From the NCBI GenBank assembly GCA_020444275.1, contig JAHLLG010000001.1, positions 496,001 to 560,000 of the forward strand: DNA of 64,000 nucleotides, in the 5' to 3' direction. The position numbers and the translations under genes are program-made. The notes under the pieces were generated by a model, which saw only the letters and a program-made list of their open reading frames with translations, did no database searches and had not been told where the DNA came from. Below, piece after piece: positions 44,390-57,477 of the stretch. Source of the stretch: Bacteroidota bacterium (GTDB lineage: Bacteria; Bacteroidota; Bacteroidia; Bacteroidales; UBA12077). Each line of letters begins with the position of its first letter. The first letter of the stretch is position 1.

Positions 44390-45772
44390 TTAATAAAGTA
44401 TTATTTTTTGTGATGATCCTGATTTGATCGTGAATCGTTTATTAACTGTATAAATTGCTTGTTTTATATTTTTTGGTCTGAATACAACCCGATAATTTCC
44501 TGGTTGCATGATAATATTTTGTCTTAATTCGTTCTGATCCAGATTGTATATCCATTTTAAGGTATCGGCAGTTTCAACATAAATACTTCCAAAACCGCTG
44601 GATGGTAACGAAAAATTGGCAATACCCGGTCGTGGTATTTCCACATTTGTTATTGTACTTTGCTCGATTTCTACATTTTCGATATAAAGACGAGGAATGG
44701 TTAGTACTTCCAAGTTGTATTTGCCAACAATATATTTTTCTTCCGAATTATTTCTTTGAACATTCAAAGTGTTTGATTTTTGATCTTCCTTAACGATAAT
44801 CTCCAAATCTTTATATTGGTTTGTTCCGGGGCATGAGATGCTGAGGTAGCCTTGCGGAGCATTCAGACCAATCATATTATGTTTTCCTTCAGCTAGAGTA
44901 ATTCCTTCCTTTTTTACTGCTGGCAGGGTATGAACAACAAGGTTGTAGGTAACCAGCGGATCTATTATTAACGTATCCGGATTTCCCATATAATTTATGG
45001 TATGTACAAAATTGTACATTACCTTTCCTGAAACCTGGTTAAAGAGAGTCATGTTTACATCAGTCTCACTGGGCATTCCTTTGCTATCCAACAGGTTTAT
45101 CTGAGCCGTAGTTGAGTTCAATGCCCTTGAAATTACGACATTTAATACCTCCTGAAACTTTTGTTCATTGGGTGTATTATAAAAATGTCCAACACACTCG
45201 AACGTCTCTTCAAATCCCGGATCAATTCCAATTCCAATTACAAAAGGTTTTAGTATTATTCCTTTCTTTTGCAGATTAAGCGATGCCTGGCAGGGGTCTC
45301 CATCACATGCTTCAATGCCATCTGTAATAAGAATTATTATGTTTCGACAGTTTTCGCAAGGAGGGAAATCACCGGCAGCTTTATCGAGTGAGTTCGCAAT
45401 GGGGGTAGTTCCTTTTGGAATAAGATATCTTAATTTTTGGCGAATTTGACCTGCATTTCCCGATTTAAAAGGAACTTCAAGTTTTGTGTCGCTGCAGTCT
45501 TGCGGTGGTACCGGACTTTGATGTCCATACACACGTAAAGCCATCTGGATATTATCCATTTGCTCAAGACTATCAATGATATGGATTAAATAATTGCGTG
45601 CGATATTTATCTTTTTATCGCTTTGCCAAGTTCCATACATGCTTTGCGATGCGTCAAAAACAAATAGTATTCGCGATGTTGGAGGCTCTGGTTTATTTTG
45701 TTGTGCCTGAATACTACCACGAACACTAATAAGAAGTATTACAACTAATATGTATTTAAAACTACTTTTCAA
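44390..45772 (-). CDS. VWA domain-containing secreted protein
   Basis: Signal peptide; [25 protein letters not shown]. Confidence 0.88.
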
Positions 45773-47307: not shown

Positions 47308-48405
47308 ATGAGTTTACAGTGCGGAATTATAGGAGTAACTAACGTTGGTAAATCGACGATTTTCAATTGCATGTCAAATACAAAAGTTGAAACAACCAAC
47401 TTTGCATTTAGTTCAAACAAATCGAACATGGGAATTATTGATGTACCAGATAACAGGTTGTATGAGTTAGAAAAACTTCAGCCAACAGAAAAATTAATTC
47501 CTGCTACTGTGGAGATACTCGATATTCCAGGGTTGACCAAAGGTGCTAATGAAGGTGAGGGGGTAGGAAATAAGTTTTTAGGAGATATCAGAAATACAGA
47601 TGCTTTAATTCATGTATTAAGATGTTTTGATGATGAAAACTTACCGCACGTTGATGGATCGGTTGATCCCGTTCGTGATATTGAAACCATCGACTTTGAA
47701 TTGCAGGTTAAAGATGTTGAATCGGTTGAGAAGAAGATACAACGATATGAAAAATTGGCAAAGGTTGGTGATAAAGATGCGAAGCAAGGTATTGAAGTTT
47801 TAAATGGACTGAAGGAGCATCTGGAACTGATGCAAAATGCAAGAGATTACGAGATAAAGGATGCCGATAAAAAACATCTGGAGGACTTATTTTTATTAAC
47901 ATCAAAACCGATTATCTATGTTTGTAATGTAGATGATGCTTCGGCGATTAATGGTAATAACTATGTTGAAAAAGTAAAGGAAGCTTTGAAAGATCAAAAT
48001 ACGGAGATTCTTATCATCGCCGGAAAATTAGAAGCGGAAATTGCAGATTTGGAAGATGAGGCGGACAGAAATGAATTTCTTGAAGATGCTGGTTTAACTG
48101 AACCAGGAGTTAATAAACTAATCCGAAGCGCTTATTCACTATTAAATCTGATGTCGTTCTTTACTGTTGGCCCAAAGGAGATTAGAGCCTGGACCATAAA
48201 AAAAGGAATGACTGCACCACAAGCTGCAGGTGCTATTCATAGCGATTTGGAAAGAGGATTCATTCGTGCAGAAGTTATGAAATATGAAGATTTTATAACC
48301 TTGGGGTCAGAAAATAAAGTTAAAGAAGCAGGTAAGTTTCACGTAGAAGGTAAAAACTACATTGTTGACGATGGTGATATCATGCACATTCGATTTAATG
48401 TGTAA
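47308..48405 (+). CDS. ychF: Redox-regulated ATPase YchF (Obg family)
   Basis: GIIGVTNVGKSTIFNCMS, DIPGLTKGANEGEGVGNKFL, C-terminal TGS-like domain. Confidence 0.96.
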   Translation: MSLQCGIIGVTNVGKSTIFNCMSNTKVETTNFAFSSNKSNMGIIDVPDNRLYELEKLQPTEKLIPATVEILDIPGLTKGANEGEGVGNKFLGDIRNTDALIHVLRCFDDENLPHVDGSVDPVRDIETIDFELQVKDVESVEKKIQRYEKLAKVGDKDAKQGIEVLNGLKEHLELMQNARDYEIKDADKKHLEDLFLLTSKPIIYVCNVDDASAINGNNYVEKVKEALKDQNTEILIIAGKLEAEIADLEDEADRNEFLEDAGLTEPGVNKLIRSAYSLLNLMSFFTVGPKEIRAWTIKKGMTAPQAAGAIHSDLERGFIRAEVMKYEDFITLGSENKVKEAGKFHVEGKNYIVDDGDIMHIRFNV

Positions 48406-48556
48406 ATGCCAGGTTGTTTTCTGGTGATGTCTGTTTTATAATCAAATCACTCTTAAATAAATTTAAGATACCTTCTCAAAAATTGTTTGATCGAGCTTTT
48501 TTTGATGGTTGAGTTTTATTTATTTTATCGGCGACTAACGAATACATTCATTAAGC

Positions 48557-50206
48557 ATGCAAAAAATAAAGATATTACCTTCAATTGGATTGATTTTAAT
48601 TCTTTTTATTTCATTAAATTCAGCTAGAAGTCAGAACCAGTTTAACAAACCACCCAAGCTGGTAGTAGGAATTGTTATTGAGGAAATGCGTTATGAGATG
48701 CTGTTGCGTTATTGGGATTCTTTCGGTGAAAATGGCTTTAAGAAAATTATTAATCAGGGTGCATTCTGCACACAAACGTATCATAATTACTTAATTACTC
48801 AAAATGGCGTAGGACAGGCTAGCATAGTAACTGGTACTTACCCATCATATCATGGTATTATTGCCGACTCGTGGTATAACCGGTTAACTGATATGACAGT
48901 AGGTTGTGCTGACGATTCGAAATTTAATCTTATTAATGGTGAACTTAGCATGGGTAATTATACACCCTCAAATATTATGAGTTCTACAGTAGGCGATGAA
49001 ATGAAGTTGGCGATGAATGATAGTTCCAAAGTTATTTCTGTTTCGTTAAATCCGGTTTCTGCAGTTATTGCAGGTGGCCGATTGGCCGATTATGCTTTCT
49101 GGTTTAATCATCATGATGGAGGTTGGATTACAGGCACATATTACTCTGATTCTTTACCATTATGGGTAAGAGATTTTAACAGTAAGGGTTTTCAAGAGGT
49201 TTATATGAAAAAAAATTGGGCAAGTATGTACTCATTAAACGATAATTACAAATACAGCTTACCTGATGACAGTGATTTTGAGATTGGATTTAGAAATTAC
49301 AGGTACACATTTCCTTATGATCTTTCTTACTTAAGAAACCGTTCGGGGAACTACAAATATTTAAAATTTACACCATTTGGAAATACCTACACCAAGGATT
49401 TTGCTATTTCTACCATTGTCAATGAAGATTTGGGCAAAGATGATTTTACAGATTTTATATCCGTAAGTTTTGCAGCAACCAATTATAGTGGCGAATTGTT
49501 TGGACCACGATCAGTAGAGATGGAAGATCTGTTTCTACGACTGGATAAAGATATTGAGCATCTAATAAGTTTTCTTGATGATGAGTTAGGGTTGGAGAAT
49601 GTTCTGGTATACGTCACATCAGACAGAGGTATTTCCGATGTGCCGGAATACCTGATTTCTAAGAAGCAAAATGCAGGTGTTTTTGAGGGTGATAAGGCTA
49701 TAACCCTTTTAAACAGTTATCTGAGTATTTTATATGAAGATGGTGATTGGGTAAAATCGTTATATTCAAGACAAGTTTATTTTAATCAAAGCTTAATTGA
49801 CCAAACAGGAGTTGACTTGAGCGAATTACAGCAAAAAGCAGCTGACTTCCTGGTGCAGTTTAAAGGGGTGGCAAACGCTTTTCCAGCCCATGTATTGAAT
49901 GCTACTGATTTTGAATCCGGAATTAATCAGAAAATACAAAACAGTTACCACCAAAAACGATCTGGCGATGTAATTATCAATCTGGAACCAGGATGGATTG
50001 AGAAGGATGGCCATGTTACAAAATCGGGATCGGGTTATGAGTATGATACGCATGTTCCATTAATCTGGTACGGTTGGAACATTAAAAGTTTACGTATTGA
50101 TCGCCGCACAGAAATTGTAGATATAGCTCCAACGCTTTCGTGGATACTTAAAATTACTGCTCCAAATGCATCCGTAGGAAAACCAATCTATGAAATTATT
50201 GATTAA
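48557..50206 (+). CDS. Alkaline phosphatase-fold (PafA-like) protein, probable pseudoenzyme
   Basis: Signal peptide; KPPKLVVGIVIEEMRYEMLLRYWDSFGENGFKKIINQGAFC..., YDTHVPLIWYG. Confidence 0.85.
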   Translation: MQKIKILPSIGLILILFISLNSARSQNQFNKPPKLVVGIVIEEMRYEMLLRYWDSFGENGFKKIINQGAFCTQTYHNYLITQNGVGQASIVTGTYPSYHGIIADSWYNRLTDMTVGCADDSKFNLINGELSMGNYTPSNIMSSTVGDEMKLAMNDSSKVISVSLNPVSAVIAGGRLADYAFWFNHHDGGWITGTYYSDSLPLWVRDFNSKGFQEVYMKKNWASMYSLNDNYKYSLPDDSDFEIGFRNYRYTFPYDLSYLRNRSGNYKYLKFTPFGNTYTKDFAISTIVNEDLGKDDFTDFISVSFAATNYSGELFGPRSVEMEDLFLRLDKDIEHLISFLDDELGLENVLVYVTSDRGISDVPEYLISKKQNAGVFEGDKAITLLNSYLSILYEDGDWVKSLYSRQVYFNQSLIDQTGVDLSELQQKAADFLVQFKGVANAFPAHVLNATDFESGINQKIQNSYHQKRSGDVIINLEPGWIEKDGHVTKSGSGYEYDTHVPLIWYGWNIKSLRIDRRTEIVDIAPTLSWILKITAPNASVGKPIYEIID

Positions 50207-50306: not shown

Positions 50307-50338
50307 AAAAAAACACCTGCTTATTACAGGTGTTTTTT
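50307..50338. terminator. Bidirectional intrinsic terminator
   Basis: AAAACACCTG-CTTATTA-CAGGTGTTTTTT between convergent genes. Confidence 0.9.
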
Positions 50339-50355
50339 ATATAATTTGCTTATTG

Positions 50356-53271
50356 TTACGGTTTCTGACAAATGAGCATTCTGCTGTCCCGGCTTAATGT
50401 AACCGAATTATCTTCAACCAGACAGGGTGCCTCAATATGTTCATCATTTGATTTAATAGCCTTTCCTGTAATCAGAATAGCCAGCTTATCGTTAATGTCA
50501 ATATTTCTCACCTTTTTGGCAAGAACTAATTCTGCTTTCGTTAGTAATTTGTGTATTTCAACTTGCTGTATATTCTTGTAATCTCCATGCTCGGCAAGAA
50601 TATTTTCTGCCAGTCGTGGTGCAGCAATTTGCCATAATTTATCTTCCAGCGTATGATTATCGTGAATAACCTGCTGCATGCTTACCGACGTTAGACGTAA
50701 AACAGTTACCGGCGATTCTGCAGTTACTGTTGCTGTTCTGGGCACATTGGTAAGTACTGCAATTTCTCCTATTATACTTCCTTTTCCAAGAATATCAACC
50801 AGTTTTTTGTTAATCGTAACTTTTACGGAACCTCTTGCTACTACATATAGTCCATCAACATGACCGTGCTCTTTGATGATTTTTTCTCCCACTGCATAAT
50901 TTCTGTGCTGAAACAAACTAACTACCTTATTGAATGTAGTTTTGTCTAATTCCTTTAGCCAAGCTACTTCTTCTAATAGTTTTGCCTTTTCGGGTGGTTT
51001 TATAGCTGGAGGAGAATCTACCAGTTTCTTCATACGTTCCTCGATACTATCAATCATTTTATGTGCTTCATCTGAACCAATCTGTCCTTTTTTCTGCAAT
51101 CTTTCTACAATTTTAAGCTCGCTATTCAGGTTTGATCTAATGGCCTGGCGTGTTGCAATGGCATCATAAATTTCAGGGTAAGTATTTTTAAGGTTACGTA
51201 AAAATGTTAAACCATGAATTCTGTTTTCGTTAATTTCACTTTCAATAGTGGCTAATTCCTGATCAACAGAGAGCTCTTCGCTATCGGAGCTAATGGCCAT
51301 ACCTTCAGCCAGTTTTAAGGATTCATACTGTGCTTCTACAAATCCCCGTGCGGCATCATAACTATTAGCTAATCTTTCGAAGAAAAAGCGTTGTGATATT
51401 TTTTTAAGAACCGGAACAGATTGCAATTTATTCAGAAATTTAGGTGTTTGCCATAATGATTCCAGGTCTTTACGCTCGGATAATGAAATCTTACCTTCCG
51501 AATCAATAATTTCATTAATGGCATCGGTTAAATTACGAACGGCTATTGGTCCTAAAAGGCCTTCTTTAAACTGATTCCAGTAGCTACTTTTTTCTTTTTC
51601 AAGAACGCGTCTGCGTTTTTCATACAGATTCGAATATTTTCCTTCATCCAGTTTTATCTTAATATCTCCAGGTCCTTCAGGTAAATAGGCTTCCACACTT
51701 TCCCAATTTGCTCTGCCTAAGAATCGGTCATTTTTCAACTTTTCCATTGAATTTTCGGCAGCATTTCTTAGATAGTTTTTAGCATTTAATATCATCTTTT
51801 GTTTAGCAGGAGGAATATCGGTAAGGCCTAAAATATTTAAAAGTGCCTTAATGGTTGTGGCATTTATTACTAATGTTAAGGTAACAATTCCTGCAGTATA
51901 AAACAGAAATTGATTTCGAATGGACTCATCAATGGAAGGTTCTCCTGCAACAATTAATGCTAAGGCTAAACCTACAGCACCGCGCAGTGCTCCCCACCAT
52001 AATACATATGAATCTTTTTTAGATATGCCATAACCTGCTTTTTTCATTACAGGAAAGAAAATAGTTATAACAAATCCTCTTACCAAATGAATCCCAACGT
52101 AAAGTAAAATAAGGATTAAAAAGTCGTTGGCTGTGAATACGATATTATCGGATATTACAACACCAACAATTAAAAAAATCAGCGTATTGGCAATGAAAGC
52201 AAATAATTCCCAAAATTCGTGTAAGAAATGTTCTACTTCAGGACTTATTCGCGTTCTGCCGACACTTGCCATCATTAAACCCAACGCTACTAATCCAAGT
52301 ACACCTGAAACATGGAAAAAATGTTCTGCAATGTAAAATGTCATATAAGCAGCTGCAACAATTACTGTAATTTCAACCAATGCATCATTAAACACTTTTT
52401 TAACCCAGGCAATAATGATATATCCAATTACAATACCAACCAAAGTGCCACCTATGGCAACTCTTAAAAACTCAATAAAAGGTGATGCATTTGAACCTGT
52501 GCCAGTTATCGATAAGAATATTACCATAAAAATTACAATGGCAGTACCATCATTTAACATGGATTCGCCTTCGATAAGAGTACCTAATTTTTTGCTTGCG
52601 CCAACTTCTTTAAGTATTGCAACAACAGCTACCGGATCGGTTGCACTAATTACGGTACCAAAAAGTAATGCCAAGGTCCAGGTCCAGTTATTAAATCCTA
52701 TTCCGGCTGTTTTTATTCCTATAATAGCCAAACCTGTAAGCGCTAAAGCGATTATGATACCTGGAATTGCCAGTATAATTGCATTTGTGGCTGTTTTTTT
52801 AAAGGTATGAACATCCATTGCAAATGCTGCTTCAAAAATTAAAGTGGGTAAGAAGATGTATAATATTAAGTGAGGATCAATCTTTCCAGCCCATCCGACC
52901 GCATCGGTAATAAAACTTGCATTTATTTTTAATCCTATGATATTCCATTCTCCAAAATAACCTAATCTTGCAAAAGCTCCCAGAACTAAACCTATAAGAA
53001 GTAACGAAACGGTATAAGGGATAGGGCTTTTTTTCAAGAAATTGCGTGTTCCTGCCCCAATTAGTAAGGCCATGATAAGAAAGAAAAGAGGACTCATGTT
53101 GCTAGAGTGACTTTCTTCTCCATGTTCTTCGTTATGCGTTTCATTCGGTTGATGTTGTTCTACAGTTTCAATTTTTTCTTTTTCGTGTTCCTGGGCCCAC
53201 GTTTTATTGGATGAATTAAACCCTAATGTAAGAACAATTAAGATTGATGTGATTCGGATAATGTTTTTCAT
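50356..53271 (-). CDS. CPA1-family Na+/H+ antiporter with C-terminal cyclic nucleotide-binding domain
   Basis: Polytopic N-terminus with ISATDPVAVVAILKEVGA and GESMLNDGTAIVIF; cNMP cassette GSIIGEIAVLTNVPRTATV; start revised from 53310. Confidence 0.92.
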   Translation of the reverse strand: MKNIIRITSILIVLTLGFNSSNKTWAQEHEKEKIETVEQHQPNETHNEEHGEESHSSNMSPLFFLIMALLIGAGTRNFLKKSPIPYTVSLLLIGLVLGAFARLGYFGEWNIIGLKINASFITDAVGWAGKIDPHLILYIFLPTLIFEAAFAMDVHTFKKTATNAIILAIPGIIIALALTGLAIIGIKTAGIGFNNWTWTLALLFGTVISATDPVAVVAILKEVGASKKLGTLIEGESMLNDGTAIVIFMVIFLSITGTGSNASPFIEFLRVAIGGTLVGIVIGYIIIAWVKKVFNDALVEITVIVAAAYMTFYIAEHFFHVSGVLGLVALGLMMASVGRTRISPEVEHFLHEFWELFAFIANTLIFLIVGVVISDNIVFTANDFLILILLYVGIHLVRGFVITIFFPVMKKAGYGISKKDSYVLWWGALRGAVGLALALIVAGEPSIDESIRNQFLFYTAGIVTLTLVINATTIKALLNILGLTDIPPAKQKMILNAKNYLRNAAENSMEKLKNDRFLGRANWESVEAYLPEGPGDIKIKLDEGKYSNLYEKRRRVLEKEKSSYWNQFKEGLLGPIAVRNLTDAINEIIDSEGKISLSERKDLESLWQTPKFLNKLQSVPVLKKISQRFFFERLANSYDAARGFVEAQYESLKLAEGMAISSDSEELSVDQELATIESEINENRIHGLTFLRNLKNTYPEIYDAIATRQAIRSNLNSELKIVERLQKKGQIGSDEAHKMIDSIEERMKKLVDSPPAIKPPEKAKLLEEVAWLKELDKTTFNKVVSLFQHRNYAVGEKIIKEHGHVDGLYVVARGSVKVTINKKLVDILGKGSIIGEIAVLTNVPRTATVTAESPVTVLRLTSVSMQQVIHDNHTLEDKLWQIAAPRLAENILAEHGDYKNIQQVEIHKLLTKAELVLAKKVRNIDINDKLAILITGKAIKSNDEHIEAPCLVEDNSVTLSRDSRMLICQKP

Positions 53272-53458
53272 TGGATATAGAGTTAGAACAATTTGAAATC
53301 CAAGATACAAAAAATTATCCTAATAAATTAAAAAAGCTAATCCCAAAAAGTGCAAACGATTATCAATCATAATTTCTTTGATGAATCCTAAATTTCAAAG
53401 AAGTAAACTTAATGAGATTAGCTCGCGAAGGTTACTGGTAACCTACAGCCTTAATATT

Positions 53459-54025
53459 TTAATCAACTTTAACGTGGCCCCAATTTTCGCCTTTTCGTAT
53501 TCTGTTTAATTGGGTGTGTGTAATTCCGAATTCTTTGGCAAGTTTGTACAGTTTGTTTTTTCCTCGCTTTAATTTCTTTTTTAAGCGAATAACATCTGTT
53601 TCGGTAAGTTTTGCGTAGTTAATAGTTCCTCTTTTGTAATTAGGGTTAATTTTTTGATGAGCATACATCGTTTCCTGGGTAACCCATTTAAGATTTTCGA
53701 TGTGATTGTTATTTTTATCGAAATCTAAGTGAATAACGTATTGTTGCATGCTATTATCTTTGGGGATAAACGTTTCAGCAACAAGTTTATGGATGTATTT
53801 TGTAGTTCGTTTACCGTTTTCCAGTTTAATGTTTAGGATTTTATAGCCTTTCAGTGTTGATCCATTAATTATAGCTCCATCTGTTTTATGGACCTTAAAA
53901 CTCTTAATTCGCCCATAATTAGATATTTCAAATTTTTCACTTTGAGCCATTCCGCTAATTCGAAGAGATTTCCACTCTTCACGAATTAGCTCCTGATGGA
54001 CCTTATTTATCTTATTTTCAGTCAT
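53459..54025 (-). CDS. NUMOD4/HNH endonuclease-like protein with C-terminal HTH
   Basis: EEWKSLRISGMAQSEKFEISNYGRIKSF (NUMOD4), YVIHLDFDKNNNHIENLKWVT (HNH), LYKLAKEFGITHTQLNRIRKGENW. Confidence 0.82.
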   Translation of the reverse strand: MTENKINKVHQELIREEWKSLRISGMAQSEKFEISNYGRIKSFKVHKTDGAIINGSTLKGYKILNIKLENGKRTTKYIHKLVAETFIPKDNSMQQYVIHLDFDKNNNHIENLKWVTQETMYAHQKINPNYKRGTINYAKLTETDVIRLKKKLKRGKNKLYKLAKEFGITHTQLNRIRKGENWGHVKVD

Positions 54026-54137: not shown

Positions 54138-54866
54138 TTAATTTTTCGAGGCTTTAACTAACCTAAATAATAGTTGCGGATTATTTTCAACGGCATTACC
54201 AACAACCATAATATCAGCTCCTGAGCCGAGAACTTCCTTTACTTGCGATTCTGTTTTAATACCTCCTCCAACAATCAACGGAATATTGATATTCTTTTTA
54301 ACACCTTTAATCATATCGATATTAACAGAGTTATTTGCTCCGCTACCGGCTTCCAAATAGATATATTTTAGCCCAAGCATTTCTCCGGCCATAGCAGTGG
54401 CTATGGCAATATCAATTTTGTTTTCAGGGATTGGTTTTGTATTACTCATATATTCGACCGAAGTAGGTTTGCCGCCATCAATTAATATGTACCCGGTAGG
54501 CAGAACTTCTAACTTACTCCGTTTAATATGTGCCGATGCAATAACATGATTTCCAATTAACAAATCGGGATTTCTGCCAGAAATTAGAGACAAAAGAAGG
54601 ATACCATCTGCCTTATTTGTAATTTGCAATAAACTGCCGGGGAAAAGCAAAGCAGGTATAGTCGTTTGCGATTTGATGATGTCTAGTGTAGAGTCTATAT
54701 CGTTATTTAGTAAACTTCCTCCAATAAAGAGCAAATCAACTTTTGCCTGATTGGCATGATCAATAAGATTAATTAATGATTCATCAGTATGTTGGTCAGG
54801 ATCAATTAAAAGAGCGAAAAGCTTTTCATTTTTTGATATGCTGTTATGAATGAACTGAGAAATCAT
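54138..54866 (-). CDS. Geranylgeranylglyceryl phosphate synthase family protein
   Basis: FALLIDPDQHT, YIYLEAGSGANN, PLIVGGGIKTESQVKEVLGSGADIMVVGNAVE. Confidence 0.93.
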   Translation of the reverse strand: MISQFIHNSISKNEKLFALLIDPDQHTDESLINLIDHANQAKVDLLFIGGSLLNNDIDSTLDIIKSQTTIPALLFPGSLLQITNKADGILLLSLISGRNPDLLIGNHVIASAHIKRSKLEVLPTGYILIDGGKPTSVEYMSNTKPIPENKIDIAIATAMAGEMLGLKYIYLEAGSGANNSVNIDMIKGVKKNINIPLIVGGGIKTESQVKEVLGSGADIMVVGNAVENNPQLLFRLVKASKN

Positions 54867-54916
54867 TTTTAAATAGTTTAAAACCTAAAGGTAAGAAAAA
54901 TAAGCTAATGATTACG

Positions 54917-55549
54917 TTATTTATGACACCATACAACGGCGTAATTTTTTAATGTAAAGTAGTTTAGAACAAATTTTTCGTTCATGTAGCTATTGTTTAC
55001 TGTTCCTGTAATTATTCCTTCGTTTTTAGGTTTAAATGGTTCGATAGAAAGGTTTGTAACAAAGTTGATGTCTACCTTATCATTAATTTTATAAAGTGCT
55101 TCTTTCGCACACCAATGCAAATAAAGATGATAAAGTTCCTGATCTTTCTCAATGTGTTCAAGCTCTTCGGGTCGTAAAAACTTATCGGCAATTCGTAAAA
55201 TTTTACTGGACATAAATTCCAGGTCAAGTCCTACACGTTTCTTCTTGCTCAATAGTATTGCTGTAAAATTCTTCGAATGAGAAATGCTTATATTAAAAGA
55301 ATTATTGTGCAGATAAGGTTTTCTTTCAGGGCCATAAACTATTTTACCGTCTTTGCCAAGCATATTTTTCAGAAGAGTACGTACACTTAACCACTCCAAC
55401 TTACGCTTATGGTTTTTAAAACTTTCTACAGTCGAAATATCTTTATCGTCAAGAATAAGCTGCGACCTTAGTGTATCATAATCTTCTGTAATTTCCCAAA
55501 GGCCTAATTCAACGTCTTCATTAAAATGTTCTCTTAAAATTAATCCCAT
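54917..55549 (-). CDS. 4'-phosphopantetheinyl transferase superfamily protein
   Basis: NISISHSKNFTAILLSKKKRVGLDLEFMSSKI...LHWCAKEALYKI. Confidence 0.9.
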   Translation of the reverse strand: MGLILREHFNEDVELGLWEITEDYDTLRSQLILDDKDISTVESFKNHKRKLEWLSVRTLLKNMLGKDGKIVYGPERKPYLHNNSFNISISHSKNFTAILLSKKKRVGLDLEFMSSKILRIADKFLRPEELEHIEKDQELYHLYLHWCAKEALYKINDKVDINFVTNLSIEPFKPKNEGIITGTVNNSYMNEKFVLNYFTLKNYAVVWCHK

Positions 55550-55560
55550 ATAATCTTAGA

Positions 55561-56148
55561 TTATTTCCACTCAAACGATTCAATTAAAACATTTATATCT
55601 TCTTTTACAAAATCAAGAACTGGTGCCAATGAATCCTTATTTGGCTCAGTATTAAAATACAGTGCTCCGCGCAAATAATGTTTAGTGCTGTCGGTTAAAA
55701 AGAATTGCACAGATGAGGCTGCATTGCCCTCTATTTCATACAAAATACCATACACATCTTTTTCAGGCTTAGAAAACCTTATTTCGTTAATCGCATCAGC
55801 CTTAATAGTATGTTTATAGGCTAATTTTCTTGTGTCTTCTAGTATTTGATTAATGTTATTGTTTATATCTTTATAGCTAATGTGGATTTTGCCATTTAGT
55901 TTGGGGTAATCAATATTAATCCAGTATTTTTCATGCCTTTTAGAATCATCATCAACCAATTTGGTATATGCAGGGTATTTAAATGTGTAGGGAAAAACAG
56001 AATCTAACTGCACATAACTTTTTTCCGGAAGATCAATTCTAAAATACCCACGTGGTTTGGGAGTATATTTTCTGTTACATCCGCTCAAGAGAAATGAGCC
56101 AATAATAACGAACACACTTACGTATGTTAAAATACTCCTTTTATGCAT
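55561..56148 (-). CDS. gldD: Gliding motility lipoprotein GldD
   Basis: Lipobox LLSGC; YTPKPRGYFRIDLPEKSYVQLDS; next to gldE. Confidence 0.9.
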   Translation of the reverse strand: MHKRSILTYVSVFVIIGSFLLSGCNRKYTPKPRGYFRIDLPEKSYVQLDSVFPYTFKYPAYTKLVDDDSKRHEKYWINIDYPKLNGKIHISYKDINNNINQILEDTRKLAYKHTIKADAINEIRFSKPEKDVYGILYEIEGNAASSVQFFLTDSTKHYLRGALYFNTEPNKDSLAPVLDFVKEDINVLIESFEWK

Positions 56149-56157
56149 TTTGTTTGA

Positions 56158-57477
56158 TTATTCGTTGATCTTAACCCTGATTTGTTTAATCCTTCTTTTA
56201 TCTACAGATTCGATTGTAAAAGTAAGATTTTTATACTCAATTTTTTTATTTCGACTGGGTATTTCGCCTGTAAGTTCAAGAATTATTCCAGCAACAGTAT
56301 CAGCATCACCTTTAATATCGTCGAAATAATCGTCATCTATGTCTACAATTTTTAAAAAGTCGTTGAGTAATGTTTTTCCTTCGAAAACATAGGTGCTTTC
56401 ATCAATTTGCGAATAGATTATTTCATCTTCGTCCGATTCGTCATTTATTTCACCTACAATTTCTTCTAGAATATCTTCAAGTGTTACAACTCCGCTTGTA
56501 CCTCCATATTCATCTATAACAATTGCCATGTGAATTTTGTTTGCCTGAAACTCTTGTAATAAGTCGTTGATTTTTTTGTTTTCAGGAACAAAATAGGGAG
56601 GTCTGATTAACGATTGCCATTTGAAGTTATCGTCTTTTTCAAAATGAGGTAATAGGTCTTTTATAAAAAGAATACCTTTAATATTGTCAAAATTTTCAGC
56701 ATACACCGGAATTCTTGAATGACCCGATTCAATAATTAATGCTAGCAGATCTTTAAACCTGGTTTCAATTTCCACGGCATAAATATCAACACGCGATTTC
56801 ATAATTTCCTTGGCATCAATATTGCCAAATTTTACGATTCCTTTTAAAATATTTTCGTCTTCGGTTATTTGATGCGTTGTTAAATTTAACGCGTGCGATA
56901 AATCATCAATGGTAATATTTTGTTTTATGTTGGCAAGTTTATTTCCTATGATTTTCGTGGTATTTAGCATTAACATGCTTAGCGGATGAAATATCCGATC
57001 GAAAATAATAATTAAAATTGCCGTTCGTCGAACAAACTTTTTGGAGTTCTTTTTTGCATAGAATTTTGGTAAAACCTCTCCAAATAGCAATAAAGTGAAT
57101 GCAATAATAGCAATTTGAATAATGAATCCCACTGTAGGCAGCTTGGTAAAATCGAAAGCCCAATTTAACAAAATCCCCATTGAAATAATGAAGCAAATAT
57201 TAACAAATCCATTGGTAATGGTAATGGTTGCTAAAAACTTTCTGGGTTTTTTCAAATGCCTGATGATTAATCTACTGCGAAAATCGCTCTGTTTTTCGAT
57301 TTCTTTCACCTGATCAGATCGTAAACTGAAATAGGCCGTTTCAGCACCTGACAACATTGCTGATGCCAGGAGTAATAAAAATGAGGTAAGTATACCTGAT
57401 ATTGTATATATGTCAATTGTCTGAACTACAATACTAGTCAAATTAAGCAATACCGGGAATGGTTCTGAAGGTTCCAA
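56158..57477 (-). CDS. gldE: Gliding motility-associated protein GldE (CNNM/CBS family)
   Basis: DUF21 membrane domain LSGAETAYFSL; CBS region; IDEYGGTSGVVTLEDILEEIVGEI; C-terminal CorC-HlyC domain. Confidence 0.92.
   Translation of the reverse strand: MEPSEPFPVLLNLTSIVVQTIDIYTISGILTSFLLLLASAMLSGAETAYFSLRSDQVKEIEKQSDFRSRLIIRHLKKPRKFLATITITNGFVNICFIISMGILLNWAFDFTKLPTVGFIIQIAIIAFTLLLFGEVLPKFYAKKNSKKFVRRTAILIIIFDRIFHPLSMLMLNTTKIIGNKLANIKQNITIDDLSHALNLTTHQITEDENILKGIVKFGNIDAKEIMKSRVDIYAVEIETRFKDLLALIIESGHSRIPVYAENFDNIKGILFIKDLLPHFEKDDNFKWQSLIRPPYFVPENKKINDLLQEFQANKIHMAIVIDEYGGTSGVVTLEDILEEIVGEINDESDEDEIIYSQIDESTYVFEGKTLLNDFLKIVDIDDDYFDDIKGDADTVAGIILELTGEIPSRNKKIEYKNLTFTIESVDKRRIKQIRVKINE

Follow-up and report, generated by a model that had tools for sequence, protein, structure and literature searches.

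The window analyzed here is a 64,000-nucleotide stretch (G000:C7:496001-560000) of a Bacteroidales genome of 4.22 Mb in 10 contigs. It carries a homolog of pafA, the gene for the phosphate-irrepressible alkaline phosphatase of Elizabethkingia and Flavobacterium (Table 1). The ancestral gene order at this locus is a transketolase pair (minus strand), then ychF, an M14 carboxypeptidase gene, pafA, an S8 peptidase gene and a gene for a small outer-membrane-barrel-like protein (all plus strand), and then GGGPS (minus strand), PPTase, gldD and gldE; some of these names, including the last four, were given by eye and from family knowledge. The window retains the two flanks of this order, with the transketolase pair and ychF preceding the pafA-type gene and the GGGPS-gldE block following it. 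A hairpin resembling an intrinsic terminator follows the pafA-type gene; the region has four such hairpins, compared with an expectation of 1.2 from shuffled sequences.

Table 1. Features of the pafA-type locus (window coordinates; residue numbers at left are those of the window protein)
Feature	Position	Strand	Description and basis
ychF, redox-regulated ATPase, conserved upstream neighbor	47308..48405	+	TIGR00092, E 8e-129; synteny
pafA-type gene, putative pseudophosphatase	48557..50206	+	ATG start, 549 aa, 0 internal stops; PafA homology; predicted fold
Signal peptide region, residues 1-26	48557..48634	+	Hydrophobic helix 6-25 (sequence and predicted helix)
Codon 42	48680..48682	+	Glu for metal ligand Asp38; alignment to PafA
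Codon 83	48803..48805	+	Asn for nucleophile Thr79; alignment to PafA
Codon 104	48866..48868	+	Asp for Asn100; alignment to PafA
Codons 165-167	49049..49057	+	Asn-Pro-Val for Lys162-Asp-Arg164 (K162 to N165, R164 to V167); alignment
Codons 309-313	49481..49495	+	NYSGE for D305YVGH309, Zn ligands (D305 to N309, H309 to E313); alignment
Codons 356-357	49622..49627	+	Asp-Arg for Asp352-His353; Asp356 kept, H353 to R357; alignment
Signature region, codons 384-408	49706..49780	+	LLNSYL...W, helix and hairpin; alignment and predicted structure; common to intact and dead Bacteroidales copies
Codon 490	50024..50026	+	Ser for Zn ligand His486; alignment
Intrinsic-terminator-like hairpin 3′ of the pafA-type gene	50308..50338	+	12 pairs, T tail; consensus match only
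GGGPS-PPTase-gldD-gldE block, conserved downstream landmark	54138..57477	-	Synteny; named by eye

In most genomes of the genus (L035-L046), ychF and the degenerate pafA are separated by a crcB-like gene of 121 aa (family assigned by eye); it is absent from the window (48406-48556) and from several other genus genomes. Downstream lies an Na+/H+ exchanger with a cyclic-nucleotide-binding domain fused at its C-terminus (50356-53310, minus strand; PF00999 and PF00027). Next to it is a gene for a free-standing HNH/NUMOD-like protein of 188 aa (53459-54025, minus strand; named by eye), which a dozen genus genomes have in the corresponding position. HNH/NUMOD-like genes are usually mobile; this one looks fixed. 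Upstream, a VWA-domain protein with a signal-like N-terminus (44390-45772, minus strand; PF00092) is encoded beside split transketolase genes, as it is in 24 loci.

The product of the pafA-type gene resembles PafA in full-length homology, predicted fold and secretion. A phmmer search of the PDB aligned residues 31–548 with the Elizabethkingia enzyme (PDB 5tj3, E-value 9.2e-94; family PF01663). An AlphaFold2 model built from a 57-sequence alignment (pLDDT 91.1, pTM 0.89) likewise has PafA as its top PDB match, with TM scores of 0.90/0.95 and 2.1 Å over 528 columns. SPAP/PhoK (3q3q, 5xwi) and ENPP-type phosphodiesterases also have the core of the alkaline phosphatase superfamily (TM 0.80 and about 0.5), but these are active metalloenzymes and lie further from the window protein in sequence. 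The NCBIfam equivalog model for PafA (NF042991) gives the protein 561.5 bits, below the curated cut-off of 650 bits. The N-terminus contains a plausible signal-peptidase I site (SARS/Q, a cleavage site deduced from sequence) and no lipobox cysteine; together with the N-terminal hydrophobic helix, this suggests a soluble mature protein in the periplasm. The genome also encodes a separate PhoA-type phosphatase. No second PafA homolog was found in it, which rules out that the window gene is a paralog of an active PafA encoded elsewhere in this genome.

We compared ten PafA positions (D38, T79, N100, K162, R164, D305, H309, D352, H353 and H486) with the window protein. Nine are replaced, and D352 (Asp356) alone is kept. 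In addition to the nucleophile, the monoesterase residues N100, K162 and R164 are gone, with Asp104, Asn165 and Val167 in their places. Within the two-zinc site (D38, D305, H309, D352, H353 and H486), D352 is the sole survivor. Judged from these substitutions, the protein very probably has no phosphatase activity and appears to lack a di-zinc site. The original prediction had assigned the PafA fold, which the PDB match and the superposition bear out, and had listed D38, T79, K162/R164, D305/H309 and H353 as replaced and D352 as kept, in agreement with our alignment. It was right that nearly all functional positions are lost but understated the extent, missing the replacement of N100 and the loss of H486. 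It had also taken the histidine of a YDTHVPL motif for a retained catalytic residue. We rejected this assignment because the residue lies outside the H486 column: PafA His486, in an upstream TTHS segment, aligns to Ser490. The YDTHVPL histidine (H499) is conserved but does not belong to the PafA metal ligands.

Despite this loss the gene has been maintained. It occurs without internal stops in each of the 20 genus genomes, at 66–82% identity, and the dN/dS of close pairs is 0.05–0.15 (Nei-Gojobori; 0.05–0.10 for the closest pairs, median 0.08 for pairs with dS <1.5). Its universal presence and low dN/dS argue against decay and rule out a pseudogene or an assembly artifact. Across the order, the median dN/dS of close pairs is 0.098 for degenerate and 0.169 for intact copies. 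The window gene thus combines the features of a pseudophosphatase: replaced catalytic residues, an intact frame and predicted fold, and long-term purifying selection. Within the genus, E42, N83, N165, D356, R357 and S490 are invariant, and positions 104, 167, 309 and 313 vary; for example, position 309 is N, K, G or H, and position 313 is E, D or Q. Six of the ten former catalytic positions are therefore invariant, compared with 37% of all columns. This is barely above the genus background and suggests that the old pocket is not the best-protected part of the protein.

These results support the earlier reading of the gene as encoding a secreted pseudophosphatase selected for a putative non-catalytic role, in that the fold is kept, the catalytic residues are lost and selection is purifying. 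Random decay among homologs, which would have contradicted that reading, is itself contradicted by the dN/dS values and by the substitutions, most of which are conserved in the genus. Conservation of the individual substitutions ends with the genus; other Bacteroidales carry different ones. The substitutions themselves are therefore not the innovation, and the set conserved across the order consists of other, non-catalytic residues.

The window protein represents an order-wide family. We sampled 158 Bacteroidales genomes evenly; 96 of them encode a PafA-family protein, but just 10 have one above the PafA cut-off. Classified by residues, 85 of the 96 have only a degenerate copy, five only an intact copy and five both; one has a fragment. 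Among 165 aligned Bacteroidales sequences, a set partly gathered by similarity to the window protein, 149 are degenerate and 16 intact (one with N100D). The degenerate copies display about 126 distinct nine-residue patterns. Many lineages retain D352 (57%) and H353 (42%). In PafA from outside the order the catalytic columns are invariant; in the degenerate main group their variability ranks between the 39th and 99th percentiles. Sampling the remainder of the class evenly yielded 48 complete sequences, all intact at all ten positions; one further sequence, cut by a contig end, is intact as far as it extends. These intact sequences include some scoring just 381–614 bits, which indicates that low similarity alone does not cause active-site loss. 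In this sample, the loss is peculiar to Bacteroidales.

Gene order and phylogeny relate the intact and degenerate copies. Intact copies occupy the ancestral locus in L067 (ychF-M14-pafA) and L217 (pafA-S8-OMP-GGGPS-PPTase-gldD-gldE), and degenerate copies occupy it in L149, L159, L166, L168 and others. Because both kinds lie at one ancestral locus, they are orthologs, and intact Bacteroidales PafA is the positional ortholog of the window protein. We built a maximum-likelihood tree without the catalytic columns, leaving out the very divergent Bacteroidaceae-like copies. In this tree, a single clade (100/100) separates the locus-type Bacteroidales copies from canonical PafA, and the intact copies are nested among the degenerate ones. 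Canonical PafA, which a few Bacteroidales genomes encode elsewhere, falls on the other side of the tree; in five genomes it accompanies a degenerate copy. The tree proves neither a single nor a multiple origin of the loss, since the AU test allows all degenerate copies to form one clade (p 0.38), and the case for repeated erosion thus rests on residue patterns. Within a large clade of 45 members, no canonical residue among the ten has been lost from all degenerate lineages, and parsimony assigns at least six changes to each. As regaining lone catalytic residues is unlikely to help a dead enzyme, the site was probably still largely intact in the ancestor of this clade and then eroded separately in the descendants.

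Thirteen positions, including G244, H335, L384, Y388, G396, W398, Q425 and G455 (window-protein numbering), are conserved in the degenerate main group but not in canonical PafA. These residues are present in 70–100% of the intact Bacteroidales orthologs and 77–96% of the degenerate main group, compared with about 0–31% (mostly <32%) of PafA sequences from outside the order. For example, W398 (PafA position 393) has a frequency of 1.00 in intact copies, 0.96 in degenerate copies and 0.27 in outside PafA. The signature region, residues 384–408, is present in the window protein and lacking in canonical PafA. Even the Bacteroidaceae-like copies, which are very divergent, have a recognizable form of its core, LLxxYLxxxYGxGxWVxxYxxxQIYLN (L 1.00, W 0.92). 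The presence of this signature in both intact and dead Bacteroidales copies, and its absence from canonical PafA, suggests that a second site stayed under selection during the erosion of the active site. On the simplest view, the signature marks a second, non-catalytic role dating from a time when the ancestor was still an enzyme. Alternatively, the region could reflect subfamily structure instead of a binding site.

We favor the reading, to which we assign a probability of about two in three, that the product of the window gene is a pseudophosphatase, secreted and soluble in the periplasm: a Bacteroidales PafA ortholog that has lost its active site, kept its fold, its secretion and a second conserved region, and serves a binding or scaffolding role in the envelope. 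We conjecture that a second, non-catalytic role was already present in the PafA of the Bacteroidales ancestor, conferred by residues 384–408 together with G244, H335, Q425 and G455. Once this became the selected role, the active site would have been free to erode separately in many lineages. In that role the protein may bind or scaffold an envelope partner or ligand. A precedent for a non-catalytic envelope role is YejM/PbgA of enterobacteria, whose alkaline-phosphatase-superfamily periplasmic domain has a regulatory role in LPS/LpxC control. YejM, however, has a 5-TM domain and does not belong to the PafA branch, whereas the window protein has a single N-terminal hydrophobic helix. Moreover, Mg-dependent phosphatase activity and an intact Thr have been reported for YejM (PMC7576196), and its status as a pseudoenzyme is therefore disputed.

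An alternative is that the protein is a remodeled enzyme in which E42, N83, N165, E313, D356 and R357 support some other chemistry, such as metal-free or single-metal hydrolysis or transfer. The six invariant pocket positions in the genus would fit such a remodeling, as would the survival of D352 and H353 in many lineages. However, the genus excess of invariant pocket positions is small, and positions 309 and 313, the latter among the proposed residues, vary within the genus. Outside the genus the pocket differs in almost every lineage, a poor fit with one new shared chemistry. We consider this explanation unlikely.

Another possibility is that the protein is an accessory factor of the lipoprotein N-acyltransferase Lnb in the periplasm, where it would present the acyl donor or the lipoprotein or steady the enzyme. 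Lnb has been reported to be the lipoprotein N-acyltransferase of Bacteroides (cited in PMC13103446 and PMC12345273). Across the order, 58 genomes have only Lnb, 76 only Lnt and 19 both. In 24 of the 158 Bacteroidales genomes, lnb lies immediately upstream of a degenerate pafA, often with a 4-base overlap, and in 21 of these secA lies downstream of the pair. These 24 genomes have Bacteroidaceae- or Prevotella-like pafA copies, and the upstream gene encodes Lnb_N and 5TMH_Lnb domains. One genome has, at L207, a single lnb-pafA frame of 924 aa, although a fusion in one genome could reflect a lost stop between overlapping genes. Lnb also occurs in 66 of 91 genomes with a degenerate pafA but in just 11 of 67 without one (p 1e-12, uncorrected for shared ancestry). 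Among genomes lacking Lnt, it occurs in 52 of the 53 with a degenerate pafA (158-genome set, likewise uncorrected for descent). Similarly, Lnb was found in none of the five genomes with only intact copies and in all five with both kinds. All of these co-occurrence figures ignore common descent, and several observations run against the idea. The window's genome has its lnb about 590 kb from the pafA-type gene, neither adjacent to nor fused with it, and has Lnt as well. Three genus members with near-complete genomes (G003, G006 and G011) keep the pafA-type protein but yielded no detectable Lnb, and other orders of the class combine Lnb with intact PafA. We regard a role as an Lnb factor as improbable, and we retain Lnb as a partner only as a lead for the Bacteroidaceae- and Prevotella-like lineages.

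Several further observations concern lnb. The order lnb, degenerate pafA, secA is conserved in Bacteroidaceae- and Prevotella-like Bacteroidales (L181-L211). In the fused gene (L207:4137-6911, minus strand; genome G065), the signal sequence of the PafA part is retained between the two halves, and in L183, a same-family relative, lnb and pafA are separate with a 4-base overlap. Clustering of neighboring genes had suggested two tandem PafA copies before secA; we rejected this because the upstream gene is lnb, which the fused L207 gene had pulled into the cluster. The Lnt and Lnb genes of the window's genome lie at G000:C7:651652-652896 and G000:C7:1135221-1135670 (L304:6610-7728, minus strand). 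We also rejected Lnb as a general cause of active-site loss, given its occurrence with intact PafA in other orders and its apparent absence from some genomes of the genus.

The many different ways in which the active site was lost across the order would also suit a functionless, slowly decaying relic, but the full-length frames, the presence of the gene in every genus genome, the conserved non-catalytic signature and a dN/dS that is no higher in degenerate than in intact pairs make this explanation very improbable.

The pseudophosphatase reading bears on how PafA is counted. PafA is portrayed as an almost universal constitutive phosphatase of Bacteroidetes; it has been reported to occur in 78.7% of the phylum, and constitutive phosphatase expression was concluded to be a common trait of Bacteroidetes (PMC8115612). 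Most copies that a homology search recovers in Bacteroidales cannot be PafA-type phosphatases, and gene counts therefore overstate phosphatase capacity unless residues are checked. One later study, a PNAS survey, made such a check: it required key residues and kept 423 of 468 isolate sequences (PMC8812569). Degenerate PafA homologs had thus been met before and then discarded; the text on this filter neither describes them nor places them in a lineage. We found no description of inactive PafA or of pseudophosphatases in Bacteroidales in the open-access literature.

The family also lends itself to the study of how enzymes die, as a natural experiment in which a single ortholog at one locus has intact outgroups and intact relatives within the order, and its ten-residue site exists in more than 100 states. 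The second conserved region points to what selection retains in the dead copies. In a broader and rather doubtful version of the reading proposed here, the Bacteroidales would possess their own order-wide envelope factor derived from PafA, which gained a second role, had its active site dismantled many times and, in gut lineages, became joined with Lnb lipoprotein maturation. If this were true, triacylation or lipoprotein handoff in the gut lineages would involve a new component, the PafA-derived factor. The gene is in any case a widespread candidate envelope gene, tied to lnb and secA in gut lineages and amenable to ordinary genetics in Bacteroides.
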